This document shows positions 2,476-63,106 of a stretch of 64,000 bases of DNA, piece by piece. The stretch covers positions 248,001 to 312,000 of the forward strand of contig JAGTXK010000134.1 of the NCBI GenBank assembly GCA_019096195.1, read 5' to 3'. The notes beneath the pieces were generated by a model. That model was not told where the DNA came from and made no database searches. It saw only the letters and a list, made by a program, of their open reading frames with translations. Numbering within the stretch: position 1 is the stretch's first letter; each line of letters opens with the position of its first letter. Made by a program: the position numbers and the translations under genes. Source of the stretch: Boletus sp. NGJ. Its lineage: Eukaryota; Basidiomycota; Agaricomycetes; Boletales; Boletaceae.

Positions 2476-3719
2476 CATACTCCTTTTGGTGGTGTTGTAT
2501 AGCTATTGAGTTTTTTTTTTTTTGAGGATTTGCCAGAGATGTTCAATGGGATTAAGGTCTGGAGATCGTGCTGGCCAGTCAAGAAGCTGTGATCCCTTGA
2601 GATTCCAGCCACTCCTTGGCTCTTCTAGAGGTGTGCTTGGGGTCATTATCTTGTTGAAAGATAATGCTCTCTTCAGGAATTCCAGAATTTTCCATGGAAG
2701 GGAGCAGATTATCCTCCAAAATGGAGACATACTGCTCAGCATTCATCCTCCCTTCAACCTCTGCAAGAATCCTCCACTCCACTCCAACTCATGCATCCCC
2801 AAACCATCAAGGAACCTCCTCCAAACTTCACTGTTCCCTGAACTTCCTTGTCTTGCAAAGACTTTCCTGCCAATTTCCATACATACTTCCTTCCATCTGA
2901 CCCAATCCTGTTGATCTTGGTTTCATCTGACCATATAACCCTAGTCCAGTCCTCCACAGTCCAATGTTGGTGCTTGAGAGCAAAGGCTAGCCTATGTTGC
3001 CTATGCTTCACAGACAAGAGTGGCTTCTTTTTCTTGACTACAGCCTTGAGAGATGCAGACTTGAGAACATTCCTAACAGTTTGAGCAGAGACAGGAGAAG
3101 AGAGAGCAGAATTGATGAGATGGGTAGCCTGGACAGCATTTTCAACTTTGCCAGAGGTAATACCAGAGACAATTCTCCTTTTGTCAGTAGGAGAAAGTTT
3201 AGAAGGACATCCTAATTTGATGTTTTCCTTGCCTGGGTGGATCTCCTTGATAACCCTGGCCACAGTAGACTTCCCCGGACCAGTTTGGAATGATATTTGC
3301 CTAGTAGAAAGGCCAGATTCAGAGAGAAAAAGAATATTGGCTCTAGCAGAGGAGGGAGTGGATTTCATGATGAAGTAGGGTTGGCTGAATGGTATCTCTG
3401 CTCTTTATACCATTTGGAGTTATGTAAGTGACATAATCAGACAGGGTTGAAGCACAGCATCCATCAGAACCTTATGTTATTTACTAAATGATAGTTGATA
3501 ATATCAGGGTCAAATAAGTGTCCCAATGACATATCCTTTTAATATGGCTATAACTCAGTACCATGACAACCAACTCACATGACTAAGGGCTCATCTTCAG
3601 GGCAAGGATTAGGGCTATCAATGGCCCAGCAAGGGTTAGGGCTAATGCCTTTTGGTTCTTTTGCAAATGTCAAGTCTTTGCAAAATAGCCAAACATTGGG
3701 ACACTTTTTTGAGCCACTG
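2476..3719 (-). mobile_element. Tc1/mariner element copy A, left end cut by the gypsy insertion
   Basis: Nearly the same sequence occurs at 50594-54563 (copy B). The right end is preserved: the terminus reads, on the minus strand, CAGTGGCTCAAAAAAGTGTC and is followed by TA (3720-3721), the usual Tc1 target dinucleotide. The left end is missing because the LTR at 1994-2475 abuts internal Tc1 sequence. The terminus contains an outer and an inner inverted copy of the GTGTCCCAAT motif about 170-200 bp apart. The element is dead because its transposase is frameshifted. Confidence 0.92.
2480..3368 (-). pseudogene. Tc1-family DD34E transposase, frameshifted
   Basis: The reading frame starts at 3368 with an N-terminal helix-turn-helix region (GLSTRQISFQTG, then SKLSPTDKRRIV). 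It continues to the DDE core, with first Asp in VIWSDETKIN, second in FQQDNDPKHTS and the Glu in SPDLNPIEHLW. Compared with copy B there is one extra base near 2773, which shifts the frame after MVWGCMSWSGV, and a longer T run (2512-2524) that shifts it again near the C-terminus. The last residues are lost to the gypsy insertion. In life the enzyme would cut and paste the element at TA sites. Family assignment is firm; activity is excluded by the breaks. Confidence 0.92.
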
Positions 3720-5257: not shown

Positions 5258-7330
5258 TCAGCGACTCTGGGGAACTGGTGTGGCCTGAGTTATTCTGGCA
5301 CCAGCATCACTTACACTCATATGAGTGACATCCATTTCAAGTTGTGCCATTGCTGATAGCCCCATGCTACTAGTGGCTGGACTGCATCTGGTGGACTGCG
5401 TAGACACCCTGGAGGTCACGTTGACGTCAAGAGAGGTAGCAATGATATGAGGGTCGGGTCCAGGGGACTGTCGTATTTGTACAGGCCTGGAGACAGGTGA
5501 TGAAGCAGGTGTTTTTGCAGCTGGCATTGCAGGTAGAGTCAGATCATCATTGTCCAAAGCATCCAGCATCTTGTCTTCCTGGTACAGGGTGTTGGAGCAG
5601 GGCCTTGAGTGTCAGCTGCAGAGACTGTGGCTACAGCACATGCCTTTCCAAAGACTCCACAATTGTAGAAGTCCATGGTATCAACCACCCATGGGGTGCA
5701 CTTGAGCAGCCTCTGGAGATAAAATTCATAGTCTTCAAGATACTTAATCTGAGTCTGTGTGCCAACTTGTGAGAGTTCGGAGTCATGGGATAATAGAAAG
5801 TGAGTCTAAGAATTTAGAGTTATGAGTTAAAACCTAGATGCCATCAACAAGATGCTAAAACTCACAATGATTGCTGCACTGGCTACCATACCCTCAGTGA
5901 CACTCAAGATGCCCATGTGCTCCCCTCTTGCTTTTGAATGTCCATGCTTCTGATCCGAAAGTGATGACTTCCCAAAGATGAGGATGTGGATGACTAGTAA
6001 CGAAATAAAATATAAATCAGTAGTGTACTTCTTGAATTGAGAGATGCTTGAGTTTGTTACCTTTATGAGAAGTGGACTCTTCAAGAAGTCCACTGCTGAC
6101 AACTGGTCAATATTTATGAACAAGATGGGAGCAAGAGGAGTGTAGTTTCCAATTCCATCTTTCTTCAGTAAGCATAGGTAGGCTGCGTTGTCCTTCTTGC
6201 GAGTAGCACTGCCAGAAAGCAGTGCAGTATCTAGTCCAAGTGGTGTGAAAAGTATGGCAGCCATGTCCTTGATACTCTTGAGAATGTTCAATCACTCTTG
6301 GTTGAGAGCGCTTGTAAACTAGTGAAAAGAGTCATTATTAATAAGGCAACACTCAGAAAGATTAGTTCAGATGATTATACGCACCACAGCCAAATTGTGT
6401 TATGAACCTTTCGGCACAAACCACAAGGCTCGAACTATTCGCAGGTTACACAGATCCTGGCTCAACGGATGAGGTGGGGAGTCTTAGTCCGTACTGTTCC
6501 CAACCCTACAATGACCAGAGTGGCCAAAGCTCACGAGTTGTTGGAGGAAAAATACAAGTGGATTAGACTGGGATTACCAGTCATCAAAGTGCTACCTTAT
6601 ATACATGAGAGAGATGTGCACGGACCAAGCAGTGCGTGTGATGATCTACTATATATAGTAAGATGGAGATTAAAGGGGCTGTGTGAGAAGAGCGGAAATT
6701 AAAGAGTCATGGATCACATGAGGTATGATGTCATATGATGTTATAGGTTCTAGACCTATCATGTGATATGTTTCCACAGTCACGTGCACAGTCACATGAC
6801 TCATGAAGAAAAAGGTTGATGAAAATGAAAAGTAAATGTTCGTATGAAAAGTTTGAAAATTTCATATATTATAACAAATTGCTTGTATGTCGCCATCATT
6901 TCATGCATGTCCTGAGGTATCATGGCATAAAGTTCTGCCAGGGCTCCATTGGCCCTCAACTTGTTTGATGCCCAGCATGCTGGACTGCAAGGATCCATGC
7001 TGGGCATCAGACCAGCAGGGAAGAGGCCATCAATTACCCAGAAGTGATACAGCATCACATACTTCTTTGCCTCCTTTGTGATTTTATTGTCGAGGGCGTC
7101 AGAATTATTGAGAATGTGACCACATTTCTTGGCAGGGATTGATGAGGAAAGTCGGGAAAATTCCTTCTTGACATGCTTCAACTCCTCACGCATCTCAAGA
7201 TACCCTTGCTGCACAAGTGCAAGTGCCTGAAATTGATATTTAAATTTAAATAAAATCAACGACGCTGTCGGAATACCATGGCCACACACCACTTACCTTG
7301 CATAGCTCATAGACCTCAGCATTTGGTCTA
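5258..7330 (-). pseudogene. Hypothetical multi-exon gene, split by a solo LTR
   Basis: Exons can be followed on the minus strand: a short start exon near 7340-7300 (MAISRPNAEVYELCK, then GTAAGT), a long exon about 7228-6877 (ALVQQGYLEMREELKHVKK ... MIPQDMHEMMATYKQF), its continuation after the LTR (6392-6378), an exon 6315-6065 (LKSIKDMAAILFTPLGLDTA ... PILFINIDQLSAVDF), an exon about 5960-5865, and a last part 5760-5258. Removing 6398-6881 restores the exon across the AATTG target site. There is a TGA in frame near 6290 (NQE stop LNILK) and a frameshift near 5570. The sequence resembles a hypothetical family repeated in Agaricomycete genomes; I know no function. Confidence 0.6.
6398..6876 (-). 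repeat. Solo LTR of Ty3/gypsy family 1
   Basis: The repeat begins TGTTATGAAC and ends TATTATAACA on the plus strand and is homologous to the LTRs at 1994-2475, 16462-16945 and 22409-22889. It is flanked by a perfect 5-bp duplication, AATTG (6393-6397 and 6877-6881). No internal element sequence remains, so it is a solo LTR left by recombination between two LTRs. The self-primer 12-mer TGGATTAGACTG is conserved inside. It sits within an exon of the gene at 5258-7330. Confidence 0.94.
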
Positions 7331-16461: not shown

Positions 16462-16945
16462 TGTTATGAGTCCCTTTCGGAAAACAAAACCACAAGGCTC
16501 GGAAATGCGTTGCAGGCTACACGAGTCCTGGCTGAACGAATCAGGAGGGGAGTCTTAGTCCTGGATATTCCCAACCCTACGACGGCCTGAAGACCGAAGC
16601 TAATGGATTGTTGGAGGAAGATACAAGTGGATTAGACTGGGGTACCAGTCGTCTAAGTGCTAGTTTATATACATGAGAGAAGTGCGCACGGACCATGCTG
16701 TGCGTGTGATAAATTACTACGTATGGTAAGACGGAGATTAAGAGGGCTGTGTGAGAAGAGCGGAAATTAAAAGGTCGTGGATCACATGAGGTATGATGTC
16801 ATATGACGTCATAGGTTCTAGACCTATCATGTGATGTGTTCCCACGGTCACGTGCACAGTCACGTGACTTATGAAGAAGAAGTTTGAAGAAAATGAAGAA
16901 GTAAGTGATCGTTTGAAAAGTTTGAAAATTTCCCATATTATTACA
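16462..16945 (-). repeat. 3' LTR of family 1 element
   Basis: TGTTATGAGT to ATTATTACA on the plus strand. It contains two CACGTG palindromes, a TGACGTCA palindrome and, on the minus strand, a TATATAAA box before the self-primer 12-mer. Confidence 0.95.
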
Positions 16946-16960
16946 CTACCCCCTCTTTAA
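16946..16960 (-). other. Polypurine tract
   Basis: On the minus strand this reads TTAAAGAGGGGGTAG, directly before the 3' LTR. Confidence 0.9.
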
Positions 16961-17008
16961 GACTCGAATTCCAGGCGAGTCGTTGTTTTTTCGTTTTCGG
17001 TGAAATTT

Positions 17009-17332
17009 TCATAAGGCGAGAATAAAGAAGCGAATGCTGATAACGATAAGACCACGAAGCTTGCGTGGTGCGGAAGGGTTAAGACGATGGAAATCTTGTA
17101 CTGCATCCGGTGCAGTTACGTGAATGTCTTCAGATTCCCAAGTTCGATCGGTTTCGTCGTAACCTTTCCAATGAACCAAATATTCTATTTTGCCTTTCTT
17201 CAACCTGGAAGCGGCGATATAATCAACTTCGAATTGCTCTTCTCCTTCTTCGTCAATTTCTATAGCGTCTGGTCGAGATTTAGGCTGTCCAGGCAGCGTA
17301 TCTCTATATGGTTTGACGCGAGAAATGTTCAC
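17009..17332 (-). pseudogene. Chromodomain tail of the gypsy integrase
   Basis: This frame continues the integrase after a one-base insertion near 17500, where the large frame to the right runs off into a stop at 17457. The chromodomain has the hallmark IEYLVHWKGYDETDRTWE and VTAPDAVQDFHRL segments. Such domains bind modified histones and steer chromovirus integration. It is identical in layout to the decayed copy at 1735-1885. With the indel removed the frame would be continuous; as written it is separate. Confidence 0.88.
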
Positions 17333-17456
17333 AGTTGGATGGATGTGAACAGAATTAGGTAGTTTGAGCGTTACGGCGTTAGGAAGTACCCGAGTGATAA
17401 CGTAAGGGCCAATCCATTTTTGTGTGAGTTTTTTCGCCGTATAAGGAAGTTTTAAT

Positions 17457-19187
17457 TTATCTGTTGAAAGCCAGACTTGCTGACCAATAGAATATTCGTG
17501 GTGCTGTAGATCGTTTTTTATCGGAAGAGGTGATCATCCTCTCTCGTGTAGCTTCCAGCGCTTCTTCAATCTCCTTATGATTTCGCCCAATTTCGTCTGC
17601 AAAACCCGTGAGATTCCCTTCGAAACCCATACGCGGTATGTAGTTTCGTGTTACTTTAAAGGGAATTTCTCCAGTGGCTGTAGTGACGGTGTTGTTGTGA
17701 GAGAATTGGGCTAATTTCAACCATTCGACCCATTCGTTTTGTTTCTTTCCGGCATACGCGCGGAGATACTGCTCGAGATCTCGGTTAACGCGTTCGGTTT
17801 GTCCGTCTGTTTGCGGATGATATGCCGTAGAGATTTTTTGTTTTATACCAAGAAGCTTACAAAGCTCTTGGGTGAAAGCAGAAACGAATTGTGGTCCTCG
17901 ATCTGATACGAGGGTAGAGGGAAGTCCATGTGTTGACCAGACATGGTCTCTAAATAGGATAGCTAGATCTTTCGAAGAACAAGTATCGTATGTTGGTATA
18001 AAAATAACTTCTTTTGAAAATCTGTCCACAACAACGCAAATAGCCGTAAAAGATTGTGATGGCGGTAAGCCTGTGATGAAATCTACTGATAAATCTTCCC
18101 ATGGTCTTTTTGCCGCGGGAAGAGGAATAACTTTTCCTGCCGGTGCATTTTGCTTACCCTTCGTGAGGGCGCACACTTGGCAGTGATCTACGTAAGTTTT
18201 TACGTCCTTTGTGACTCCTGGCCACGAGAAATATCGAGAGAGAGTATGTATAGTTTTTGAATGACCGCCGTGTCCTGCAATAGGCGAGTCATGGCATAAT
18301 GTAATGATTTCTGTACGTAAAGATTCAGGTACGTAGATTTGATCTTTTTCGTTTTTGAATAGATTAAGTTCTGAGTAGAAAAGGAAATTGTTTATAGCAT
18401 CGACGTTATGTTTTTTAGATTCTTTTTGTATTTTTGTCATAAGATCAGAAGAAAGAGAAACGTGGTTTATAAATATAGAAGGAGGAAGAACGGTGACGTT
18501 TTGATTGTGATCTACAACTGCGTCACCGTGATCTGGTCGTCGAGATAAAGCATCGGCTCTTCCATTGGACGATCCAGGTTTGTAAACGAAAGAATAATTA
18601 AATTCTTGAAGAAGTGCGTGCCAACGTGCTTGACGTCCGCTAAGCGTTTGAGGCTTCTTCCAATATTCTAGATTCTTGTGGTCGGTCCAGATTTCAAATC
18701 CTTCGCGACCTATTAAATAATGACGCCATTCTTCTAATGCGCGTATAACTGCAAGCAGTTCTTTATCGTAGATTGGGTAATTGCGCTCTGCGCTGTCAAA
18801 AGAGTGAGAGATAAAGGCGACTGGTCGCCAGTTACCATCGTTGCATAATGTGGAGAGCACTGCTCCCGTGGCGATGTCTGAAGCATCGGTTTCCACACGC
18901 ATTTCTTGATCGCGATTAGGATACGCGAGAAGTGGTGCTTCCGTGAATTTTCTTTTTAGGTTGATGAATGCTTCTTGTTGATCTGGACCCCATTTGAATG
19001 GAACGTCTTTCTTGGTAAGATCGTTCAAGGGTCGTGCGATTTGCGCGAAGCCTTCTATGAATCGTCTATAATAATTACAGAGTCCGAGAAAGCCTTGAAG
19101 TTGCTTCAAGCGAGTAGGAATTGGCCAATCCATGACCCCAGCTACTTTCTTCGACTGCATTTCTACCCCCTCTTTAGATACCACCAT
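17457..19187 (-). pseudogene. Gypsy pol: RT thumb, RNase H and integrase
   Basis: A 576-codon open frame holds the RT connection (QLQGFLGLCNYYRRFIEGFA), RNase H (VETDASDIATGAVLS, then HSFDSAERNYPIYDKELLAV, then WTDHKNLEYW), the integrase zinc finger (HGGHSKTIHTLSRYF, DHCQVC) and the integrase catalytic core ([40 protein letters not shown]). All catalytic residues look present. A one-base shift near 19185 separates it from the RT palm, and one near 17500 separates it from the chromodomain. Confidence 0.93.
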
Positions 19188-19878
19188 TCCTAGGAAATCT
19201 ACTTTTGTCTGCCGAGAAGGTACACTTTTCTGGTTTTACGTAAAGGTCGTTTTCGCGGAGACGGCGTAAAACTTCCTTTACAACTTCTTCGTGTTGTTCT
19301 TTTGTCTTTTTTGAGGTAAATATCATGACGTCGTCGATGTAGATGACGACTACCGCATACATGTCGTTAAATATATCGTTCATCATAGTTTGGAATGTAG
19401 GAGGGGAGTTCGTGAGACCGAAATACATAACGGTAGGTTCGTATGCTCCAATAGGGGTAACGAATGCTGCTTTCCATTCGTCGCCTTCTTTGATGCGGAC
19501 ATTGTTATAGCCCCATCGGAGATCCATAGCCGTAAATAGATCCGCATTTTTGAGTCGATCAATTAATTGCGGAATAAGAGGGAGTGGATAGGAATTCTTG
19601 ATTGTTCCTTCGTTTAAATAGCGGTAGTCCATAACCATTCGTTTTTTGCCGTCTTTTTTAGGAATGAAGAAGACGGGAGATGTCTGTGGAGATTTGGAGG
19701 GTTTGACGTAACCCTTTTTGACTTCCTTTTCGATAAACGTTCTGACTTCTTCCATCTCGATGTCCGAAAGGGGAATAACACGTCCTTTCTTGGGGATGAA
19801 GTCTTCTTTGAGATCGATTGCGTGATCCCAATGTTTTCGTAAAGGCATCCTTTGAGATTCTTTCTCCGAGAAAGACAT
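19174..19878 (-). pseudogene. Gypsy pol: reverse transcriptase palm and fingers
   Basis: The RT domain shows PVFFIPKKDGKKRMVMDYR, AMDLRWGYNNVRIKEGDE, YFGLTNSPPTFQTMMND and the catalytic VVIYIDDVMIF box. It overlaps the protease frame at its start and the RNase H frame at its end through one-base shifts. Sequence quality within the domain is otherwise intact. Confidence 0.93.
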
Positions 19879-19879
19879 C

Positions 19880-20641
19880 TAGAAATTCGTGATAAGTTAA
19901 TGGAACTTTTTCTTTTAGTCCTTCTTCTATTGTACGTAGTTGAGCCGGCTCGTAAGAAGAAGTGGGTCCTAGGCCCATAATTTTACAGTATGAGGTACAT
20001 CGAGGAAACGTAATTGTCTGTTTTACCCAATCGATGTCAGGGTTATGACGATATAGCCAGTCATACCCGATGATCATTCGATGAGTGCCTAATTTAGATA
20101 TATAAGCGTCTATTACTTCGTAGTGTCCTTCGATTTCCACCATCAGGGTTACCGCATGACGGATCGGTCCGATTGCTCCTTCCGAACCGTCAGCGTTATG
20201 TATCTTAATGGGGTTGTCGATGGTATAAAAAGGTATTCCGTGTCTTTTTACATAGTCCTGATCGATAAACGTATGCGACGCTCCCGAATCCAGGAGGGAC
20301 TGGAAACGGTAACGCGACCACTGGCCGTTAACGTTGCACGATACTATGGTTTCAAGAGAGAACTCTCCACCATAGGAAAGCGTAGATGCTTGGTTTAACG
20401 TGACCTTTGTGGGTTTATATATATTCGATATTTTTTGTTGTTTTACGAGGGAATTAAGTACACTTAATTCTGGTGCCACGCTCAATTGAGACGCCCTCGC
20501 AGATTTCATAGATAATTTACGTAGTACAGCGGAGAGATCAGAGATAGGGAAATCGGTATGTGTACATGTCGTAAGAGAAGATGAAAGAGAGAAGAAAGTT
20601 CTTGCCGCTGAGTTCCCTCTGTACTCATTGGCGCTGTCCAT
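19880..20641 (-). pseudogene. Gypsy protease domain
   Basis: The aspartic protease signature LLDSGASHTFIDQDYVKRHG is present, followed by GYDWLYRHNPDIDW, the usual second half-site (flap and DWL region) of Ty3/gypsy proteases. The frame starts with MDSANEY at 20641, shortly after the gag frame ends, and goes out of frame with RT near 19870. Confidence 0.9.
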
Positions 20642-20682
20642 TTAAAGCCTGTGCAGCTCGGGCTTTTGCTTCTACCTCGAAT

Positions 20683-21794
20683 TTATCTCTGATAGTACGC
20701 TTCCGCCTCATCGGAAACGTAAGTCCTTGCTGCTACGCTTGGTGCCGCCGTAGCTACGGGAGGTTGCGGGAGAGGTCGTTGCGCATATGCGCGAGATTGG
20801 GATTCGTTAAAAAAATGGGGATACTCGTTTTCTCCCTGATTTTGCTCGACGTACGAGCCTTGATTCCAGTCCCAAATCTGGCGTTGCATGGGCGGACGAC
20901 CTGTCCTTTTGAAAGGGTTCGTCGGGCAGTTAGGTTTTATGTGGCCGGGTTTGCCACAATGGAAACAGGTGCGAGTTTCCTTGGAGGGTCCAGCCTGCTG
21001 GACACCTATCTCCATGGGCGCGCCGCGACCCGGTTGAGTTCCTACTGCCGTGTAGGTTGGACGATAAGAATTTTGTGGGGGTTGCCCACGGGGAGGAGGG
21101 AAGGATGATGCGGGGGTTGAGATCTGTGAGGAGGACCACGCTCGTTTACGATCTGTTCGAATGCCCGCCCTATGTACTCTGTAGTTTATGACTAGAGTCT
21201 TCGTAGTCAAAATTGCGGGCGGGGCTGTTCAAGACGAGAACGTTCGTAAATTTTGTAGTCTACCGCCTTTTTCAGTAGAACTGCAGCGTGGTGGTCGTCG
21301 ATGTACGACTCTTTCCTTAAGATCTCGAATCGTTGGAGGAACAGGTCAATAGGATGACCATTTTGTTTTAAGGTCTCGAGTTTCCTTAATGACTCGTGGG
21401 CCAGAGTGTCGATGCAGAAATGGGTTTTTATCTGCTCCTGCAACCTGTTCCAAGTGGGCCATGCAGTCGGCTCCTTTTGCCGGCTAGCAAGACCCCGTTT
21501 GCGTCCGTCTCGATGGTAGCTTCCTCATCGAGGTAGTGCTCCATGATTAATTGTGCGAAGGCTTCTGCTTTTCCTTCGAGACGGGAGAGGACAGCGATGT
21601 CCATGATCTTGTTGTTTTTCCATGTTCTGGGCGTCAACCCAGAGACGGAGCTTTATCCACCAGGGGCGGAATGATGACCTTGTGCCGTCCCATTTCCCAG
21701 GATCGGCGATCTTCTTTGTGATGTTTTCCTTGTCGCGTTCCTGAGTAAGGTCGGCGAGTTTCTTGACCAGCTCGTCAATGTCGACTCTAGACAT
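20683..21794 (-). pseudogene. Gypsy gag with zinc knuckle, frameshifted
   Basis: Three overlapping frames make up gag: MSRVDIDELVKKLADLTQER at 21794, a capsid-like middle part (21637-21428, then 21443-21207, with LAHESLRKLETLKQNGHPID), and a C-terminal part (21210-20683) with the CX2CX4HX4C knuckle CFHCGKPGHIKPNCP at about 20920. The shifts are single-base and lie near 21640, 21440 and 21205. The capsid binds and packages the element RNA. Confidence 0.88.
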
Positions 21795-22035
21795 ATCGTG
21801 GGTTGGGCCTTAGGAGTGATGTGGGGCGGAGGTAAGAGCGGAAGTATTGGATGCGGTAAAGGGCGAATGCGGAGGATGGGCGGAGAGGTCTGACTTTGTC
21901 GGGGTTTCTTGTATAGTTTTCCTTTTCCTTCGTCGGTCTTCTTTCAGAACCTTACTACCAGATATCTTGCAATCCGGTTCTGGGGTTCCTACGCCTTCGT
22001 AGGAGTCGAAGTATAGATCGTTAAAAATGGTGGGC

Positions 22036-22301
22036 GACGGTGGTAGGGGGACCGGAGTATAACTGCTTTTACTACAAGCAGGTGTAGCACAGGAGAAAGG
22101 CGAGATAAATCCCCCTAACGCTACTTCGTGACGTCACAGGTGATCACGAGAACCTGGGTTCACTATCGTAGAACCAGCGTACGCTTAGGTCGGCAACCAC
22201 CTAAGAAGTGGGGCTAGTGCACTATGCCCGGCAGCAACGTTATCCTTATTTATGACGCCGGACGAGCGTATATTCAAGCGTTTCGGCGAGTGCTTTTCTC
22301 G
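22036..22301 (-). ncRNA. Conserved structured leader RNA of gypsy family 1
   Basis: Between the primer-binding site and gag this untranslated block aligns with 56584-56847 of the unrelated-LTR element. Stem-loops (plus coordinates): 22287-22301 (CGAG/CTCG), 22211-22229 (GGGC/GCCC stem with palindromic GTGCAC loop), 22184-22205 (CTTAGGT/ACCTAAG), 22154-22177 (CTGGTTC/GAACCCAG around loop TACGATAGT) and 22063-22081 (CTGCTT/AAGCAG with loop GTAGTAA). Several stems differ from the other element by compensatory changes with loops kept. A role in RNA dimerisation, packaging or translation start is inferred only. Confidence 0.7.
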
Positions 22302-22394
22302 TCACCGTCAAGTGGTGAATACTATGCAGATGTCCCTTAAAACGCTGGGCCCGCGTATATCTCCTTAGCTCTGGAGTCCGAGCGTTGTGTATCG

Positions 22395-22406
22395 CAGTCT
22401 AATCCA
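22395..22406 (-). other. Primer-binding site, self-complementary to the element RNA 5' end
   Basis: On the minus strand it reads TGGATTAGACTG, 2 nt after the 5' LTR. It is the exact reverse complement of CAGTCTAATCCA in the LTR (22584-22573 on the minus strand), which lies about 32 bp after the TATATAAA box. No tRNA needs to be invoked. Confidence 0.72.
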
Positions 22407-22408
22407 AG

Positions 22409-22889
22409 TGTTATGAGTCCCTTTCGGAAAACAAACCACAAGGCTCGGAATGCGTTGCAGGCTACACGAGTCCTGGCTGAACGAATCAGGAGGGGAGTCT
22501 TAGTCCTGGATATTCCCAACCCTACGACGGCCTGAAGACCGAAGCTAATGGATTGTTGGAGGAAGATACAAGTGGATTAGACTGGGGTACCAGTCGTCAA
22601 AGTGCTAGTTTATATACATGAGAGAAGTGCGCACGGACCATGCTGTGCGTGTGATAAATTACTACGTATGGTAAGACGGAGATTAATAGGGCTGTGTGAG
22701 AAGAGCGGAAATTAAAAGGTCGTGGATCACATGAGGTATGATGTCATATGACGTCATAGGTTCTAGACCTATCATGTGATGTGTTCCCACGGTCACGTGC
22801 ACAGTCACGTGACTTATGAAGAAGAAGTTTGAAGAAAATGAAAAGTAAGTGATCGTTTGAAAAGTTTGAAAATTTCCCATATTATTACA
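22409..22889 (-). repeat. 5' LTR of family 1 element
   Basis: 481 bp, about 99% identical to 16462-16945. It holds the promoter: the minus-strand TATATAAA is at 22616-22609 and the predicted RNA start is near 22584. Confidence 0.95.
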
Positions 22890-50362: not shown

Positions 50363-51959
50363 CAGTGGCTCAAAAAAGTGTCCCAATATTTGGCTATTTT
50401 GCAAAGACTTGACATTTGCAAAAGAACCAAAAGGTATTAGCCCTAACCTTTGCTAGGCCATTGATTGCCCTAATCCTTGCCCTGAAGATGAGCCCTTAGT
50501 CATATAATTTGGTTGTCATGGCACTGAGTTATAGCCATATTAAAGTGACATGTCATTGGGACACTTTTTTGAGCAACATTTCTATTCTTCAATTTAGTAC
50601 TTTGTATGCCCTCCCTTTGCTTTTATCACTGCCTCTAGTCTTCTAGGCATACTCTCTATCAATCCTTGACACTCCTCAACCTCTATCTTCCCCCACTCCA
50701 CTTCAATTCTCTCCCAAAGCTCCCATACTCCTTTTGGTGGTGTTGTATAGCTATTGAGTTTTTTTTTGAGGATTTGCCAGAGATGTTCAATGGGATTAAG
50801 GTCTGGAGATTGTGCTGGCCAGTCAAGAAGCTTGATCCCTTGAGATTCCAGCCACTCTCTTGGCTCTTTTAGAGGTGTGCTTGGGGTCATTATCTTGTTG
50901 AAAGATAATGCTCTCTTCAGGAATTCCAGAATCTAAAAGTTAGTGGACGACGCATGTGAACCTCTTTGTGATGACACTTATCCGATGCTTTTCTCGCATA
51001 TTTTGGCTATTTCACATATTTTGGGTGTTTCATCTATGGTGGCTGTCCCACGTGTATTTCCTTTTTTGTGCATCAAAAACCATGTGGCTTGCTTGCAGTG
51101 AATCTGTTGTCTGTTCAGTACTAGGGTGGTAGCACAGCCGCTTTCCATATGTGGAATGCCTGACCGTGTTGGAGTTGCTCAACTGCGTGACGACCCGACT
51201 ACTACTGCAATTCCTCACATTCTACACTGTGTCTACACAATTGACACAATTCATCCACACCTTTGCTACACCTGCCCATATCTGAAGTCTCTAAGTGTTC
51301 TTTGTAAGTTTAATACCATCTGATTGATGTTCTGGCTGTCATCTGATAACAGATCTAACAGTTGATAAGGACTTTTCAAGAGTGAAAGTGTAAGTTTTTG
51401 GATTAGGCACTTGATCTCTGCTTCACTATAGTGTGCCAAGTGTGAAAACCAGTTGGTTAGGAAGAAGTGTGATCAAGTCTCTACTACCTGGCTTCACAGA
51501 TTCAACTCTGTGTGTTTGCTGGTTGTCCTGAGACCTCTGATAGCACTACAGAGCAGAGACTTGATTGGAGGCTGCCAAGGAGACTGACTGGTCTTTGATC
51601 TGTCTTTTCTTTCTTGCTGTTACCTTTCACTTTGTCTTAGGCATTTTGCCTTTATCTCTGTCATACTCCTGTCCTGGTTGCCTTTTAGTGAACTCTTGGC
51701 ACTGCTGTGTAAAACAGAGTGATTGGTGTGCATTCTTGACTACCTTTCTGAAGACTGGCCATACCTGGACCCTTTCTCTTGGACCTGGATCTTTTCCCTT
51801 GGACCTGGACTTGGACTTGGACCTACCTTCTGGACTTGGATCTCCTTTCTGGAACTGGATTTTTCTTTCTTGGATTTTGGAGTTGAAGTATTTGTTTTAG
51901 AATGTATGTATTTTCAGATTCTTTGTTGATATTTCATATGAAATTCATATTAGGTCTTC

Positions 51960-53170
51960 TCCTTCCACCTCTCTCCAATGTGCCCAACGTGCTGCTCGCC
52001 AGGCTGAACATGATCAACGTCAGCTTGGTTCTTCTCCATCCTGTCATCAACCTCATGCTGTCATACCATCAATTCCTACTGCTTTGGTGGTGAGTTTCTT
52101 TTCATCTATTATAAATATTCAAAGGCCAAATATGATTTCTAGATTCATCCTCCTGTTCCTGTTCAGCAATATCCTGGAATACCCTGTCATCAGATTGCAC
52201 ATCATAATATGCAATGTATGTACTGCAACTGGACATCACCACCACCACCACCACCACCACCACAACAACAACAACAACATCAATTTCCTCTTTCAATGCT
52301 CTATCCCTTTGCTCAATCATCCATGCTACCAAATTAGCAACTACTCTATCAAGCATTTATACCATCCCCTCAATAGCCTCAAAACTTTCCTCAAATGGAT
52401 GCTTGGGTGGATTACAGTGCTCACCTTTTGGATGAGTTCAATCATACTCATGACAGGCGATGCAACAGAAGACAAAATCGTTCTTCTGGAATTTATTCTC
52501 ATCCTAATCCTGGGATTCCTACTTCTAATCAGCCATTTCCACAAATTCCACAAATTCACCAGCATGTTATCAATTTTCAACATGAGGCTGAAAATCAGAG
52601 ATATTTGCGAGCTCAACAGGAACAGGAACAAGAACATTTTATGAGATTGCAACAACTGCAGCAGTAGCAGCAACAACATCACCAAATGCAGTTGCAGCAT
52701 GAGTAGTCCCTTAGACAAGAAGTAGAGTGTCAACAGCTTTTAGAGCATCAAAGAGAGGAATTGAAACAACAAATGCTATATCGGCAAAGAGTTGCTGAGG
52801 AGCAGCAAGAGGCAGTGCAACAACAAGAACTAGATCATTGGAGAGTTGCTGAAGAGCAGCAACAAGCAATACTAAGACAGGAACTACATCATCAAAGAGT
52901 TGTTGAGGAGCAACAGGCATTGCTAAGACAGGAGCTTCATCATCAAAGAGTGGCCAAGAAGCAGCAACATGCATTGTTAAGATAGGAGCTTCAATATCAA
53001 AGAGTGGCTGAGGCATAGCAACAAGCATCACAAAGACAAGAGCTTCATCATCAGAGACTTCTTCAGAAGCAGCAACAAGAAGAGCAACGTGAGGATTAAG
53101 AGCACTAAGCAGTTCAGCAGATGCAACAGCTTTCTCAAGCCTTGCTTGCACAGGCTTTAAGAGAATATAG
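51960..53170 (+). pseudogene. Gln-rich cargo gene of Helitron B
   Basis: The start resembles Helitron A cargo (AARQAEHDQRQLGSSPS; IHPPVPVQQYPGIPCHQI). It then has a run of Pro codons from CAC/CCA repeats (52238-52262), a segment with MDAWVDYSAHLLDEFNHTHD, and long Gln-rich coiled-coil repeats (RVAEEQQEAVQQQELDHWRV and relatives, about 52740-53100). Stops interrupt it near 52337, 52667, 52705, 52983 and 53019. No domain is recognised. It is about twice as long as the copy A cargo. Confidence 0.5.
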
Positions 53171-53511: not shown

Positions 53512-54565
53512 CAGCCCAGGTGAAAGTGCTAGTTTTCCATGGAATGAAGCAGATTATCCTCCAAAATGGAGACATACTGCTCAGCATTCATCCTCCCTTC
53601 AACCTCTGCAAGAATCCCCACTCCACTCCAACTCATGCATCCCCAAACTATCAAGAAACCTCCTTCAAACTTTACTGTTCCCTGAACTTCCTTGTCTTGC
53701 AAAGACTTTCCTGCCAATTTCCATACATACTTCCTTCCATCTGACCCAATCCTGTTGATCTTGGTTTCATCTGACCATATAACCCTAGTCCAGTCCTCCA
53801 TAGTCCAATATTGATGCTTGAGAGCAAAGGCTAGCCTATGTTGCCTATGCTTCACAGACAAGAGTGGCTTCTTTTTCTTGACTACAGCCTTGAGAAATGC
53901 AGACTTGAGAACATTCCTAACAGTTTGAGCAGAGACAGGAGAAGAGAGAGCAGAATTGATGAGATGGGTAGCCTGGACAGCATTTTCAACTTTGCCAGAG
54001 GTAATACTAGAGACAATTCTCCTTTTATCAGTAGGAGAAAGTTTAGAAGGACATCCTAATTTGATGTTTTCCTTGCCTGGGTGGATCTCCTTAATAACCC
54101 TGGCCACAGTAGACTTCCCCAGACCAGTTTGGAATGATATTTGCCTAGTAGAAAGGCCAGATTCAGAGAGAAAAAGAATATTGGCTCTAGTAGAGGAGGG
54201 AGTGGATTTCATAATGAAGTAGGGTTGGCTGAATGGTATCTCTGCTCTTTATACCATTTGGAGTTATGTAAGTGACATAATCAGACAGGGTTGAAGCACA
54301 GCATCCATCAGAACCTTATGTTATTTACTAAATGATAGTTTATAATATCAGGGTCAAATAAGTGTCCCAATGACATATCCTTTTAATATGGCTATAACTC
54401 AGTACCATGACAACCAACTCACATGACTAAGGGCTCATCTTCAGGGCAAGGATTAGGGCTATCAATGGCCCAGCAAGGGTTAGGGCTAATACCTTTTGGT
54501 TCTTTTGCAAACATCAAGTCTTTGCAAAATAGTCAAACATTGGGACACTTTTTTGAGCCACTGTA

Positions 54566-55854: not shown

Positions 55855-56215
55855 TGAAACGAACTCGGATATTTTCCCTTTATTTACGTAGTTAGCTACA
55901 CTTAGACGATCCCACGAACGACATTACGTAGTTACCATTATACCTAGACCTTACGTCCTAGACCATACGTCACTCACTAGTCAGCCTACGTCACACCCCT
56001 ATACCCATAGAACAGGCTAGACCCCACTACGTCACCGTACGTCATACGGAACATTCTAGTAGGTTCCATGACCGGCCCTAAGCTGGTCCGTGCTCACAGT
56101 AGTTAGTATATAAGTAGCGCTACAACACCTGTATTAGCTAATCTTGGAATTCCTTTTCTCTCTCTCGAATATCGCGCTTGCGACTCTTGAGATATTAAGG
56201 TCTTCTTTCCTTTCA
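55855..56215 (+). repeat. 5' LTR of family 2 element
   Basis: 361 bp. Contains at least five ACGTCA words, a TATATAAG box (56107-56114) and the self-primer TAATCTTGGAATT (56139-56151) about 31 bp after it. Confidence 0.94.
56107..56151 (+). promoter_or_regulatory. LTR TATA box and predicted RNA start with self-primer
   Basis: TATATAAG at 56107-56114; RNA start expected near 56138, giving a 5' end whose first residues are complementary to the primer-binding site at 56216-56228. Confidence 0.7.
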
Positions 56216-56228
56216 AATTCCAAGATTA
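56216..56228 (+). other. Primer-binding site complementary to the element RNA 5' end
   Basis: AATTCCAAGATTA directly follows the 5' LTR and is the exact reverse complement of 56139-56151. Confidence 0.72.
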
Positions 56229-56583
56229 TCCCTCGTCCCCGGGCTCTTCGCCTCTGGACATTTCCTCCCCTCTACCCCTACTGTTTTTGCCTAGTCGAGC
56301 AAACTTTTTGCTCGCTAGTACCGCTCTCGCCCTTCGATCCAACACTCCCCGTATCTGACCCTCAGAGGAACCGAGGGATCCCCGTTAGCGATAGACGTAA
56401 ATACCGGACCTATACGGCGGTTGTCAGCGCAGGGATCTCCTCGACTGCAGGGAACGAATAAGGAGTTCGGGTCTCGCTTCTCCCTCCTCCCCCATCCACT
56501 TCCGAACGCGTGGGCTCGTCGCCGCCGTTCACCCATACACCGGACCTCAGGTTTAGAGGGACCCGCTCGTACACGTGACGTAC

Positions 56584-56847
56584 GCGAGTAAAGCACTCGG
56601 CGAAACGCTTTGTCATACGCTCGTCCGGCGTTTACAAATAAGGATAACGTTGCTACCGGGCATAGTGCACTAGCCCCGCTTCTTGGGTGGTTGTCGACCC
56701 AAGCGTACGCTGGTCCTACGATAGTGGACCCGGGTTCGCGTGATCACCCGTGACGTCACGTAGGTGCGATAACTCGATTTATCTCGACTTTCGAGCGTGC
56801 ACCACCTTCCTGTAGTAAGGAAGTCATCCTCCGGTCCCCTATCACCG
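56584..56847 (+). ncRNA. Conserved structured leader RNA of gypsy family 2
   Basis: Counterpart of 22036-22301. Stem-loops: 56585-56599 (CGAG/CTCG), 56658-56676 (GGGC/GCCC with palindromic GTGCAC loop), 56682-56703 (CTTGGGT/ACCCAAG), 56710-56733 (CTGGTCC/GGACCCGG around TACGATAGT) and 56806-56823 (CTTCCT/AGGAAG around GTAGTA). Relative to family 1, paired positions change together while loops stay constant. It lies before gag and contains no conserved reading frame. Confidence 0.7.
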
Positions 56848-57072
56848 CCCGACTCTCCCCCCTCCTGACGGTGCGCGGTCTTTCCCGCCGTTATTCTTTA
56901 CAGCCCTGTCTTCAGACGGCCCCCGCACCTACAACGTATTCAGACGCCGCTACGTCTGGGTACACCCCGACTATTCTTTCGTCATCCACACGGTCCTGAC
57001 GACCTACTCCACGCACGACCACCGCCACCGCACCATCACCCGCCTAGCTCAGTCTCGCCGGCTTAAGACGCG

Positions 57073-58543
57073 ATGAGCCACGTACCCCCGCAGCAGCCAT
57101 ACTCACGCCCCCCGTCCGTCGCAGCCGCCCCGGGTTCCTTCAGGGACCTGGCCAACCGGGCCGCCGCCCAAGGGCCTCCCCACCCTCCAACTTGTCCAGC
57201 CGACCCCGCAGACGATCCCGGCGCCGCTACCGCAGGCCCCTCCGTCCCCCACGCGCCAGCAGGACATCGAGCAGTACCTGCTGCACCAGTCCGTCCTCCG
57301 GTACAACGTGTGGCGCCAAGCGTTCGCGGCAGACCCGTAGCGGCTGGACCGCCCCCACCAATCGCGCTCCCCGGGTGGACCCTCCCGCTCCCGCTCCCTC
57401 TCCCGGAGCCCACTCCCCGAGCTCACGGTATCCGAGTCCACATCCCTTCTCCCGGGAGGACACCCCGACTGGTCCCACCGCAGGGCCCAGCTCCCTCGCG
57501 CCCGCTCCCCACGCCCCCGCAGCCGAGCTCCCCATCCCACTCGAATTCACCTGGGATCCCTCGGCCCGCCGCACGTGGCTTCCCCCCGACTTCCCCGAGG
57601 ATCGGGAAGAGCCTGGCCGCTAAGCCAGAGCATTACGACGGAAACAAGGAGAAGTTCGTTCAGTGGTGGAGAACCGTCACTCTCTACCTCAACGGCTTCG
57701 AAAGCACGCCGACCGATCGGCAAAAAATACTAATCACGCTGTCGTACATGCGAGGCGATAACGCCGCCGGGCGATTCTCAGACCTCCTGGTCGAAGGAGA
57801 CGCATACGCCGCCGTCAACTTTGAGTTTTTCGTGGAGAAACTCAAGAAGACGTTCCAACCCGCCGGCCTCGTGCGCCTGGCGGAACAGAAACTGTTCTCC
57901 CTTCGCCAAGGGAAGGACAGCGTCGAAGACTACTTCACGCGCCTGTTCCAGCTGGCCATCGAGGCCAAATTCGACGTCAGGATAAACGGGAGGACGATCG
58001 TCAACCAGATCCGGCACCAGGCCCGGAACGAACTGGTTGAGTACGTCGAAAGGTACAAGCCGGACCTCATCGACTCCACCGACGTCCGCGAGTGGGAGAC
58101 CGCCCTGGTACGGGCAGAGGAGGTCCTCGGCGCCATCGCAGAGCGCAAGAAGGCCTCCAACGTCTTCGCCACCGGTCCCCACCTACAACCCGCGTTTCAT
58201 CCCGCGTCCCCGCTCGTACGCACCTCCCGCTGCACCCCCGCCTACCCGCCCGCCCCCCTCGGCGCCCGTCGCGCGCCCGCACCCTCAGACCACCGGGGTC
58301 TTCCCCGGACAAGGCGCTCCCATGGAGCTCGACAAGGCACGCGCAGCTGGACTGTGCCGAAAATGCAGGAAGCCCTGGCCCTGCGCCGATCACCCGCCCC
58401 GCCCTCGCCCGCAAGCGAGGAGCATCACGGTAAACGGTCAGGAAGTTTCCCCGGACATGTTTGCTACGATACGAGCCATGATGGACTCAGCGGAGAGCCC
58501 CGCATGTAGAACCTGTAGTTTACGCCCCCGATGTACAAAGTGA
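57073..58543 (+). pseudogene. Gag of family 2, frameshifted
   Basis: Start ATG 57073 (MSHVPPQQPYSRPPSVAAAP). A Pro-rich N-terminal part is followed by a capsid region (AKPEHYDGNKEKFVQWWRTV; FFVEKLKKTFQPAGLVRLAE; LFSLRQGKDSVEDYFTRLFQ). A one-base shift near 58170 moves the frame to a C-terminal part with GAPMELDKARAAGLCRKCRK and PWPCADH, a shortened Cys/His knuckle, ending at 58541-58543. Confidence 0.85.
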
Positions 58544-58667
58544 CTCGGGTTTTCAGCCTGTACAGTAGACACCAGTCGACCTGCTGTACAACATAAGTCA
58601 TTGCTGAATGTAACATGTTTTCCGTCCTAAGCATTGACGAGACTGAAGACGAGGATACGAACAACGC

Positions 58668-59455
58668 GTGAACCTCCCGGGCACTCCGCCCGTTAAGAAA
58701 ATGACCATCATGCCGCGAAAGGTGAAGTTCGCGCCGTCCGTAAAGCGAGACGACGGCCCGAACGACGCCGACACCATCCCGCGCAAACACCCAAAGGAAG
58801 CACGAAAGGGAGAGACGTCCTCTCGTTCCTGGCTGAACACGTTGGACCCCTGGTCCATACGTTGGATGAAGGCCCAAGTGGAGAACACGGATGTTGACCG
58901 CAGCATCCACCACCTGAAGTCCTTCGTTCACGACAGCCGGACGATCGAAGTGTCTCGGGACCTCGTGCAGGACCTCCGAAGACTTTCCGACGAAGACGCG
59001 TACTGGGTCCTCCATGACCTACAGCACGCCCCGAAATTCCGGAAAGCATCCCCTCGATCCACGAAGCGAAACTCGCTGGAGATCCCGGTGACGCTAACCC
59101 TCCCGAACCGACAGACCGCCAACGTCAAGGCACTGATCGATTCAGGCTGCACCGGATCGTCCATCCACGAGAAGTTCGTGGCTGAAAAGGGGGTAAAGAC
59201 GCACTCCCTCCCCCGCCCCCTCACCGTCTACAACGCCGATGGCACGCCGAACGCCGGAGGCAAAGTAGAGAAATTCGTGATCCTCGAAGCTCCAGGTGAA
59301 CGACCACAGGGAACAGTTGGCCCTCGCAGTAACCAACCTCGGGCCCAACACCGTGTTCCTCGGACACGACTGGCTGAAGATGCACAACCCAGCCATCAAC
59401 TGGAAAACCGGGAGAATTTCCTTTCAGATGCAAGAGGGGATCACGCCGTGGGCAG
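58668..59455 (+). pseudogene. Family 2 protease domain
   Basis: The frame from ATG 58668 leads to the aspartic protease motif VKALIDSGCTGSSIHEKFVA. After a one-base shift near 59295 it continues with NTVFLGHDWLKMHNPAINW, the DWL region, to a stop at about 59458. Gag and protease are in separate frames with a gap of about 120 bp, which could reflect indels. Confidence 0.82.
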
Positions 59456-59589
59456 TGTAGACGAGGAGGAAGACGAGATGGACGTAGACTACAGGCCGTC
59501 CCAAGGCGACAGACTATTCGAACTCGATGTAGTAGAGTACATGCGAAATCGAAACGTCGCCACGGAGGTGGCCATCAAGGACTACGTCC

Positions 59590-60480
59590 CAGAAAAAGAA
59601 GAGAGACCTTCGAGGAAGCCGCCCCGAAGTACGTCCACGAATATAAAGACGTCTTCGACAAAGAAAGCTTCGATGCGCTACCCCCGAGACGCCCTTGGGA
59701 TCACGCCATCGAGCTCCTCCCCGGGAATCATGAGGTAGACTGCAAGGTCTACCCGCTCAACCCCGGCGAGCAAAAAGAACTCGACTCCTTCCTCGAGGAG
59801 AACCTCAAATCCGGGAGGATACGACCCTCCAAATCACCCTTCGCGTCGGCCTTCTTCTTCATCAAGAAGAAAGATGGACGCCTCCGCCCTGTACAAGATT
59901 ACCACAAGCTAAACGCGGTAACAAAACGAAACCGCTACCCGCTCCCGCTCATAAGCGAACTGGTCGACAAACTCAAGTCGGCCAAATACTACACAAAGTT
60001 CGACGTGAGATGGGGGTACAACAATGTACGAATGGCAGAAGGAGACGAATGGAAGGCCGCCTTCCGAACAAACCGCGGGCTATTCGAGCCCCTCGTGATG
60101 TTCTTCGGACTCACCAACTCCCCAGCGACGTTCCAAACGATGATGAACGCGCTGTTTAGACAGCTGGTGGACCGAGGCGTAGTGGTCGTCTACATAGACG
60201 ATATCATGATATTCACGAAGACGCTCGAAGAACACCGCAAGGTAGTACGAGAAGTGCTACAAATCCTCCGGGACGCCCACCTCTACCTGCGCCACGACAA
60301 ATGCGACTTCGAAGTCCAAGAAACCGAATTCCTCGGGCTCATCGTCGCACAAGACAAGGTGAAGATGGACGAGAAGAAAGGTGGAAGCCATCAAGAGCTG
60401 GCCACGTCCCCACCTCGAAGAAAACACTCAGAGGTTTCCTCGGATTCCTCAACTTCTACCGACGGTTCGTCAAGAACTTC
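59590..60480 (+). pseudogene. Family 2 reverse transcriptase
   Basis: Domain order is YKDVFDKESFDALPPRRPWD, then AFFFIKKKDGRLRPVQDYHK, KFDVRWGYNNVRMAEGDEWK, FFGLTNSPATFQTMMNALFR and the catalytic VVVYIDDIMIFTKTLEEH. The frame is open from about 59640 to 60380, then a one-base shift (GEDGREERWKP region) passes to the RNase H frame. Confidence 0.92.
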
Positions 60481-61010
60481 GCAATGATAGCGCGCCCCCT
60501 CAACGCGCTCACGTCGGTGAAGAAAGACTTCGAGTGGACGACGGCCTGCCAAGAGGCCTTCCAAACCCTCAAGGACACCATCTCCTCCGCCCCGGCGCTC
60601 GCCATGCCCACCGACACCGACCCCTACCGCATCGAAACCGACGGCTCGGGCATCGGCATCGGCGCCATCCTCTCCCAAAGACACGACGGCATATGGCACC
60701 CCGTCGCATTCATCTCCCGTTCCCTCAACGACGCCGAGAGGAACTACCACGCCGCCGACCTCGAGATGCTAGCCATCATGTTCGCCCTCAACGAAGTGGC
60801 GACAATACCTCCTCGAGGCAGCCCACCCAATCGAGATCTGGACGGATCACAAGAACCTCGAGTTCTTCCGCAAACCCCAGGATCTCACCCGCCGCCAGGC
60901 CAGGTGGCAACAAGTCCTACAAGAATACCATGTAGTAATCAGCCACCGACCTGGCAAAACCAACCCCGCGGATCCTCTGTCCCGGAGGCCAGACTTTGAA
61001 AAGGGGGTGA
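60380..61010 (+). pseudogene. Family 2 RT thumb and RNase H
   Basis: Reads TLRGFLGFLNFYRRFVKNFA, then RIETDGSGIGIGAILSQRHD, then RSLNDAERNYHAADLEMLAI. After a shift near 60800 it continues with EIWTDHKNLEFFRKPQDLTR and PADPLSRRPDF. Catalytic acidic residues are present. Confidence 0.88.
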
Positions 61011-61179
61011 CATCCGACAACACCGCACAGACACTTACTCCCCGACGCCCTTTTTTCGCCCCCACCATCACCCACCTCCACGACAGTCTCACTCAAAGCC
61101 GTCGCACCAGCGAGCACGCTCTCAAGAATCACGAAACTGCAATACAAACTTGAGCAGTTCGCCAAAGAAGGCCTAGAGA

Positions 61180-62210
61180 AAGAAGAGACTCCCCCTGGAC
61201 CCGCAAGGACGGACTCGTCCACTGGAAATCGCTCGTTTACGTGCCAAACGACGCGAAACTCCGAGAGGACATCCTCATCGCCAACCATGATCATCCGATC
61301 GCCGGCCACCCCGGCATCCGGCGCACTCGCGATCTGATCATGAGCGAATACTACTGGCCCTCGCTTCGACGCGACGTGGAGTCATACGTCAAAGGGTGTG
61401 ACACATGCCAAAAGGTTAAAGCCAAAACCTCGGCAATCAACACACCACTCCACCCGAATGAGATCCCATCATCCCCCTGGGAAATCATCTCCGTCGACCT
61501 GATCGGCCCCCTCCCCAATCAGATGGCAAGAACGCCATTCTGGTTATCGTCGACTCGTTTCTCGAAAATGATCCACCTAGCCCCGGTGATGGACACCATC
61601 ACGTCACAAGGAGTCGCGACAATCTTCCGCGACCAAGTCTTCAAACTCCACGGTGTCCCCCGCAAAGGTGATCTCCGATCGAGGAACGCAATTCGTGTCG
61701 TCGTTCATGCGCGACCTCTACTCGCTTCTCAACATCGAAGCCAACCCGTCTACCGCTTACCACCCCCAGACCGACGGCCAGACGGAACGCGTCAACCGAG
61801 AAGTCGAGAAGTACCTGCGCATCTACGTAAACCATCGCCAAACCGACTGGGCCGAATGGCTACCCCTAGCCGAGTTCGCCCACAACTCGCAAACCACCAG
61901 CGCAACCGGCGTCTCACCCTTCCTGCTCAACTACGGGCAACAACCGCTCATACCCAACAAACGAGTGGAAGTAAGGAACGAGTCCGCCGCCGCCTTCGCC
62001 GAAACAATGAAAACCCACCACAACTCGGCCAAGGACGCGCTAGAGAAAGCGGCAGAGGCGATGAAGAAGGCGCACGACAAGCGCGCATCCCCCGCCGTCG
62101 AATACACCGTCGGACAACAGGTTCTACTCGAAGGAACCCACATCCGAACCGACCGACCCGACCAAGAAATTCGACGACAAACGACACGGCCCGTTCAAGG
62201 TGAAGCGTAA
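61180..62210 (+). pseudogene. Family 2 integrase
   Basis: Zinc finger (HPGIRRTRDLIMSEYYWPSL ... CDTCQKVK), then the catalytic core ([51 protein letters not shown]). A one-base shift near 61660 separates the first Asp part from the rest, and another near 62135 separates the core from the tail. The order and motifs are those of Ty3/gypsy integrases. Confidence 0.9.
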
Positions 62211-62369
62211 GGTAGGCGAGGCCTCCTACGAAGCTAGACCTCCCGCGAACGTGGAAAGGGATCCACCCCGTCTTCCACGAAGTCGCTCCTTACGCCCTAC
62301 CACCCGGGCACCTCCCCCTCCCAGACGAAACCGAAACCACCACCCCCGGTTATCGTCCAACAACAAGAA

Positions 62370-62731
62370 GAGTACGAAGTGGAGCACGTCGCCGACTCAC
62401 GTAAGCGACGCGGCAAAACCGAGTACCTCGTACAGTGGAAAGGGTACCCCCGCGAAGAACGCACTTGGGAACCAAAACGGAACGTCTCAAACGCCCCACA
62501 GGCGATCGAGAAGTTCCACCGCAGAGAACCCCACCGCCATCCGCACGCTCGCCGACAACGAGTGCGACTGCCCAACGTGCGCCTTCCCCGGAACCCCCCT
62601 ATTCGACGACCCATCCTTCCGCTCGTACGCGGCCTCCTCAACCGCCTCCCCGACCACCTCTTCGAGATCCCCGACCCCACAGCGACGTCAAGCTCACCGG
62701 TATCATCATCGACCGGGAGTTCGATGGCTAA
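62370..62731 (+). pseudogene. Family 2 integrase chromodomain
   Basis: EVEHVADSRKRRGKTEYLVQ, then WKGYPREERTWEPKRNVSNA, then PQAIEKFHRREP form a typical chromodomain at the integrase C-terminus. The terminal tail (DREFDG) ends just before the polypurine tract. Confidence 0.9.
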
Positions 62732-62742
62732 AAAGGGGGTAA
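62730..62742 (+). other. Polypurine tract of family 2
   Basis: AAAAAGGGGGTAA directly before the 3' LTR. Confidence 0.88.
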
Positions 62743-63106
62743 TGAAACGAACTCGGACGTTTTTCTCCTTTATTTACGTAGTTAGCTAACACTTAGACGA
62801 TCCCACGAACGCCTTACGTAGTTACCATTATACCTAGACCTTACGTCTAGACCTACGTCACTACATTAGTCAGCCTACGTCACAACCCTATACCCATAGA
62901 ACAGGCTAGACCCCACTACGTCACTCTACGTCATAGAGAACATTCTAGTAGGTTCCACGACCGGCCCTAAGCTGGTCCATGCTCGACAGTAGTTAGTATA
63001 TAAGGTAGCGCTACAACGCCTGTATTCGCTAATCTTGGAATTCCTCTTCTCTCTCTCGGACTACGCTCTTCGCGTCCCTTGAGATATTGAGGTTTGTTTC
63101 CTTTCA
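62743..63106 (+). repeat. 3' LTR of family 2 element
   Basis: 364 bp, the same family as 55855-56215, with several substitutions and small indels between the two. Confidence 0.95.

Follow-up and report, generated by a model that had tools for sequence, protein, structure and literature searches.

For LTR retrotransposons the signals that direct packaging are ill-defined, and the locus described here raises the question of why two very different families in one genome carry a common folded RNA of about 260 bases ahead of their first gene. Since the RNA is alike while Gag diverges, it becomes testable whether such leaders are read by a protein of the element or by a host factor. In the window (the whole stretch of 64,000 nucleotides that was analysed), the families are represented by the elements E1 (clan 1) and E2 (clan 2), and their features are collected in Table 1.

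Table 1. Coordinates in the window of the two elements, their leader blocks and the helices of the proposed fold (fractions, pairs changed on both sides among the pairs of the helix)
Feature	Position	Strand	Position in E2	Remarks
Element E1	16462-22889	-		LTR pair 99% alike; target duplication GAAGC, 5 bp, by eye
Element E2	55855-63106	+		LTR pair 90% alike; target duplication GGAGG, 5 bp, by eye
Structured leader block of E1 (clan 1)	22023-22321	-
Structured leader block of E2 (clan 2)	56565-56862	+
Predicted RNA 5' end / self-primer, E1	22573-22584	-		about 30 nt past TATA box at 22616
Primer binding site (PBS), E1	22395-22406	-		complementary to 22573-22584
Predicted RNA 5' end / self-primer, E2	56139-56151	+		about 30 nt past TATA box at 56107
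Primer binding site (PBS), E2	56216-56228	+		complementary to 56139-56151
First AUG past predicted 5' end, E1	21792-21794	-		taken as gag start
First AUG past predicted 5' end, E2	57073-57075	+		taken as gag start
H1	22302-22318	-	56568-56584	loop ACTTGAC; 5/5; top-ranked covariation
H2	22276-22295	-	56591-56610	2/4
H3	22256-22268	-	56618-56630	weakest, 88.9% paired; 2/4
H4	22211-22229	-	56658-56676	GGGC-A-UAGUGCACUA-GCCC, palindromic apex; 0/7
H5	22184-22205	-	56682-56703	4/6
Possible 3-bp pseudoknot, H5 loop and adjoining upstream sequence	22196-22209	-	56678-56691	2/3
H6	22157-22175	-	56712-56730	loop TACGATAGT, identical in 47/54; 3/5
H7	22137-22156	-	56731-56750	2/5
H8	22084-22124	-	56763-56803	encloses H9; 98.9% paired; 3/5
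H9	22092-22114	-	56773-56795	5/5
H10	22063-22081	-	56806-56823	loop GTAGTA; 4/6

Both elements are Ty3/gypsy chromodomain elements (chromovirus) by their domain order, chromodomain, paired LTRs and target duplications. Pfam matches in E1 were, in order, retroviral-type protease, RVT_1, RT_RNaseH, Integrase_H2C2, rve and Chromo; those in E2 were RVT_1, RT_RNaseH, Integrase_H2C2 (zinc-binding) and Chromo, with a gag also present and with no Pfam match to protease or rve in the pieces examined. Reading frames were broken in both elements. The best matches of the E2 reverse transcriptase (RT) piece among solved structures were 4ol8 and 7q5b (named Ty3-G Gag-Pol), the former presumably being the Ty3 RT. 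At the nucleotide level E1 and E2 gave three matches only at E≤1e-3, namely the leader (83% over 278 nt) and two pol segments (70% over 209 nt and 71% over 141 nt), and amino-acid identity was 37-52% for pol pieces, 28% for the protease piece and about 52% for RT. The LTRs had been described as unrelated and the gag proteins as barely alignable, and indeed no blastn match between the LTRs was obtained at 1e-3, nor any gag match at 1e-3 among open-frame pieces of at least 60 aa. A canonical zinc knuckle was present in E1 and absent from the E2 gag pieces tested.

Other repeats were observed in the window. At positions 1-2321 a third element of clan 1 is represented by its LTR and 3' part, in the opposite orientation to E1; a leader core at G000:C133:244801, 3.2 kb ahead of the start of the window, and an RT match at C133:247278 lie upstream of it. 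A further LTR akin to that of E1 (78-88% over ungapped stretches) is located at 6441-6874, a unit of about 54 nt occurs in six tandem copies at 52750-53077 (66-82% alike to the reference copy), and 2515-3073, 50759-50932 and 53533-53917 are copies of one other repeat (97-99% alike), which we take to resemble a DDE transposase gene. No tRNA gene was found in the window with bacterial search settings.

The leader of E1 (22301-22038, minus strand) was aligned with that of E2 (56585-56847) at 83.8% identity (E=7e-76), so the match lies where the original prediction had placed it; it could be extended to the 278 nt given above, and the fold starts slightly beyond the interval first proposed, with helix H1. 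The three stem exchanges that had been quoted as paired changes were all found: CTTAGG/CCTAAG for CTTGGG/CCCAAG, GGTTC/GAACC for GGTCC/GGACC around the loop TACGATAGT, and CTGCTT/AAGCAG for CTTCCT/AGGAAG around the loop GTAGTA. The block is not coding: stops interrupted every frame in 52 of 54 copies and two of the three frames in each of the remaining two, which together with the position upstream of the gag start rules out a coding block.

A 20-nt core was matched, with up to 3 mismatches, at 228 places in the 32.8-Mb genome and at 3 places for the reversed control, and these counts, together with the alignment E value, exclude chance as the source of the E1/E2 likeness. A gapped two-motif pattern gave 125 genome matches and its control 1; blast scored 40 of 208 and 40 of 217 candidates, so that the blast counts are lower bounds. 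The block loci analysed were 72 distinct long places, from 90 loci of which 18 were repeats, plus 20 that are short and distant. In 68 of these long places the block is flanked by the LTR and the gag of one and the same clan (LTR1 with gag1, or LTR2 with gag2), and the other four are truncated or at contig ends. The leader is thus shared by two element families, as had been proposed, but these are two large clans with subfamilies rather than isolated elements.

RT domains were compared with a list of 177 block positions (a few approximate or doubled, and fewer than the 228 core matches). A listed block was located 1.5-6 kb upstream on the same strand for 90 of the 150 domains scored (of 471 candidates), with distance peaks at 2.6 and 3.2 kb, against 11 in a strand-flipped control. 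The other 60 had no block upstream in this incomplete list, so the block may not be required by all such elements. Eight RT matches with near-equal scores and open frames of 1,229-1,264 aa, none with a listed upstream block (G000: C21:489257, C22:1712229, C44:198075, C71:35485, C74:83293, C81:4477, C81:38391 and C89:143645), are possibly a young family without the leader RNA.

Outside this genome, the exact 20-nt core gave 0 matches in viral contigs and prokaryote genome contigs, and RT queries found no confirmed relatives in viral contigs; RT relatives in the protein collection numbered 7,645 at E≤0.001, with 59-69% identity among the 120 matches listed. A known RNA family was rejected as an explanation of the block, as Rfam 15 gave no match in the window at the gathering score and relaxed searches gave 1 and 2 matches with E>1, far under threshold. 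No report of this leader RNA was found in open-licence PMC text.

For the fold, 54 of 57 non-redundant block sequences (<97% identity) were aligned; L091 and L100, whose 3' half differs, and L066, which is truncated on the 5' side, were left out. Ten helices with 52 pairs were obtained, in which 95.8% of cells were paired. The original prediction that paired bases change together was borne out, and its statement that loops stay fixed holds for most apical-loop positions; some do vary (e.g., one each in H1, H2 and H5). H4 is nearly invariant, and covariation is therefore uninformative for it; its apical palindrome is intact in 38 copies and broken in 16, and a non-palindromic GAGCAC form of the apex was found at 46 genome places. 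The innermost pair of H10 is unpaired in 26 of the 54 copies. The possible pseudoknot of H5 was paired in 99.4% of cells but, with its best pair at rank 63 (E about 43), did not reach significance under the tree null. As a general feature, a long-range contact between the H1 loop and a downstream TCACGT was rejected, since only 79.9% of cells were paired and three of its six pairs were unpaired in 16-26 of the 54 rows. L091 and L100 retain the 5' two thirds of the fold; in their different 3' part GTAGTA is still flanked, by eye, by short complementary stretches, and a clan-1 LTR and self-primer lie upstream of L091.

Pairing counts, which are biased towards the helices because these were partly derived from the same alignment, were compared with shuffled and slid alignments. 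Pairs changed on both sides numbered 30 of 52 (25.0 in shuffles, with 0 of 500 as high; at most 12 in slid versions), doubly changed cells 476 (160 in shuffles, at most 82 in slid versions), and the percentage of paired cells stood against a shuffled mean of 80.2; further pair types, one of the five measures, showed no excess (78 against 76.6, with 189 of 500 shuffles as high). A more independent assessment of covariation was made by a G-test with average-product correction, using 60 alignments simulated on the tree as the null. Of 41,616 column pairs, seven reached E<0.05 and three more E=0.05; the ten highest-ranked all fell in helices, as did 18 of the first 20. The wider alignment called for by the original prediction, run with an R-scape-like script (not R-scape) on the copies of one genome, therefore gave significant covariation under a tree-aware null, above the shuffled and slid controls, as expected of an RNA structure under selection.

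In a comparison with control segments, the block in 35 copies gave 5 pairs at E<0.05, while LTR pieces of clan 1 and of clan 2 gave 1 each and the clan 2 PBS-to-block segment and two gag pieces gave 0. Within a single clan 3 pairs (clan 2) and 0 pairs (clan 1) were obtained, which indicates that the power of the test comes from depth. The mean minor-allele fraction was 0.21 in stems and 0.08 in apical loops, stems being about 2.6 times more variable, and the matched stem changes on mostly fixed loops argue that the fold itself is selected. G-U cells (146) outnumbered A-C cells (84) in helices, as fits a sense-strand RNA. Single-sequence folding energies were unremarkable (z of -1.25 for E1, -1.26 for E2 and, on the complementary strand of E1, -0.46), so the structural evidence is comparative; covariation over 54 copies backs the fold without probing and singles out the loops.

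The likeness of the leaders could overstate their conservation if template switching had led to an exchange of the leader between clans once their polymerases had diverged, a history compatible with any of the functions below and possible, if on the unlikely side. Block divergence between E1 and E2 is about 19% against about 47-48% in RT amino acids, similarity drops near the limits of the fold, and within clan 2 E2 and L062 differ by 16.7% in the block and by about 10.5% in RT nucleotides, all of which would suit such an exchange. A plateau of distances (about 0.19-0.25 between clans against up to 0.22 within clan 2) is, however, likewise produced by variable stem sites beside invariant loops (gamma shape 0.51), and both saturated stems on fixed loops and an old exchange fit these values. 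Spacer and gag of the clans are unmixed in all 72 long places, and the blocks of the clans form separate groups (100/100), a separation that counts as independent only where the flanks of a copy are known, as the clan labels of 18 short copies (L092-L099 and L101-L110) rest on the block itself. Compensatory changes would in any case require selection even on an exchanged leader.

The surroundings of the block were then considered, with RNA 5' ends predicted from the TATA box. E1 and E2 appear to be self-primed, as the PBS of each is complementary to the predicted 5' end of its own RNA, a mark of self-priming described for Tf1 and Tj1 in the available text of PMC4600332. A sequence of 11-13 nt, 30-33 nt past a TATA motif and exactly complementary to the LTR-end sequence, was present in 65 of the 72 distinct long places; it was not found in 6 by the TATA-anchored search, and 1 was too short. 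This self-primer/PBS sequence differs between clans and co-changes within clan 2. The distance from PBS to block is about 85 nt in one clan and about 350 nt in the other, that from the predicted 5' end to the block 263 nt in E1 and 426 nt in E2, and that from block to gag 228 and 210 nt, respectively.

No AUG occurs between the predicted 5' end and gag in E1 (790 nt) or E2 (934 nt), where dinucleotide shuffles would give 6.5 and 4.7 and were AUG-free in 0 and about 0.3% of 300 cases. Among 14 copies examined (E1 and E2 included), 13 had no AUG before the block and 11 none within it, and 6 had 1-3 AUGs between the block and the first longer frame; over the 54 aligned blocks, 13 had none and the others 1-9, with 4.0 expected on average.

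With moderate confidence, we read the block, about 260-300 nt long and non-coding, as a structured RNA domain that acts in cis in packaging and dimerisation, Psi-like or TIPIRT-like. This reading is favoured because packaging and dimerisation signals lie at the 5' end of the genomic RNA in Ty1, Ty3 and HIV-1, according to the available text of PMC11381356, PMC4974528 and PMC5454406. In self-primed Ty3/gypsy chromodomain elements it would lie on the genomic RNA with the PBS on one side and gag on the other, folded into some ten short hairpins. Compensatory changes let the stems of these hairpins drift, whereas most positions of the apical loops do not change; the loops, being held fixed, are its likely contact surface. 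It would most likely tag full-length RNA for encapsidation and dimerisation and may also aid the start of reverse transcription from the self-primer. Because the PBS-to-block distance varies widely between clans, nothing requires the block to extend the primer complex rigidly. Dimerisation through a simple palindrome is disfavoured by the copies in which the H4 apex is not palindromic. The E1 and E2 Gag pieces are unalignable and the zinc knuckle was found in E1 and not in the E2 pieces tested, which is hard to reconcile with recognition of similar loops by the Gag of each clan itself.

In the strongest rival, the fixed loops would be read by a putative host factor instead of Gag, and the domain would serve translation or nuclear export (IRES-like, shunt-like or constitutive-transport-like) in both families, since one host is common to them. 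Largely alike loops in clans with unalignable Gag pieces would then be expected, and the block-to-gag distance is alike in the two elements whereas the distance from the 5' end is unlike. The leaders of E1 and E2, AUG-free also ahead of the block, nevertheless fit cap-dependent scanning, which would make internal ribosome entry unnecessary, and we regard the host-factor reading as unlikely. A broader form of it, in which the block would be a modular 'passport' RNA, a host-read leader that retroelement families retain or exchange although their LTRs and Gag are unrelated, is put forward tentatively, as unlikely; if true, a constant host factor rather than the Gag of the element would recognise the fixed loops.

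Improbable, too, is a scaffold for the initiation of reverse transcription or for primer cleavage in self-primed elements, comparable to the 5' structure of Tf1. Both clans have 11-13 nt of self-primer/PBS complementarity, whose two sides change in step, and titles cited in PMC4600332 state that Tf1 self-priming requires a complex RNA structure; yet the PBS-to-block spacing differs about fourfold between clans, and loops common to both clans cannot pair with LTR/PBS sequences that are unrelated between them, which makes direct pairing to the primer unlikely. A DNA-level repeat or mutation artefact, with C-to-T decay on both strands of inverted repeats mimicking covariation and no RNA function, is extremely improbable and largely refuted: C>T and G>A were the commonest changes in most of six copy pairs compared, but a purine/pyrimidine coding blind to such decay still yielded four pairs at E<0.05 (three of them helix pairs, of H1, H9 and H5, the fourth displaced from an H9 pair by a single position), and the signal was lost in the slid controls.

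Among known systems, Ty1 is a copia-type element. The TIPIRT domain of Ty1 (Saccharomyces), as far as the available text describes it, consists of the 53-nt 5' UTR and 327 nt of GAG, whereas the block described here is wholly untranslated; Ty1 is tRNA-primed, unlike the self-primed Ty3/gypsy elements studied here, and the TIPIRT core is conserved mostly by identity among Ty1/Ty2, in contrast to the extensive compensatory change of this block. Retroviral Psi/DIS regions likewise lie between PBS and gag with a GUGCAC-palindrome hairpin, GUGCAC being the DIS sequence of some HIV-1 subtypes; the palindrome is not universal here, no Rfam match was obtained and no homology is claimed. Ty3 is also Ty3/gypsy, and a 5'-proximal palindrome in a short hairpin drives its dimerisation in vitro, a likeness to the palindromic H4 apex (38/54), but it is tRNA-primed and its PAL6 appears inside GAG; these features are taken from the available text of PMC11381356, a 2024 paper that calls the Ty3 packaging sequences not precisely defined. 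In the Tf1/sushi elements Tf1 and Tj1 the PBS is complementary to the RNA 5' end, as here, and a conserved leader domain like this block was not found described for them in the available text of PMC4600332. What the block has in common with Psi and TIPIRT is its structured nature and its place by the PBS and gag, towards the 5' end of genomic RNA.
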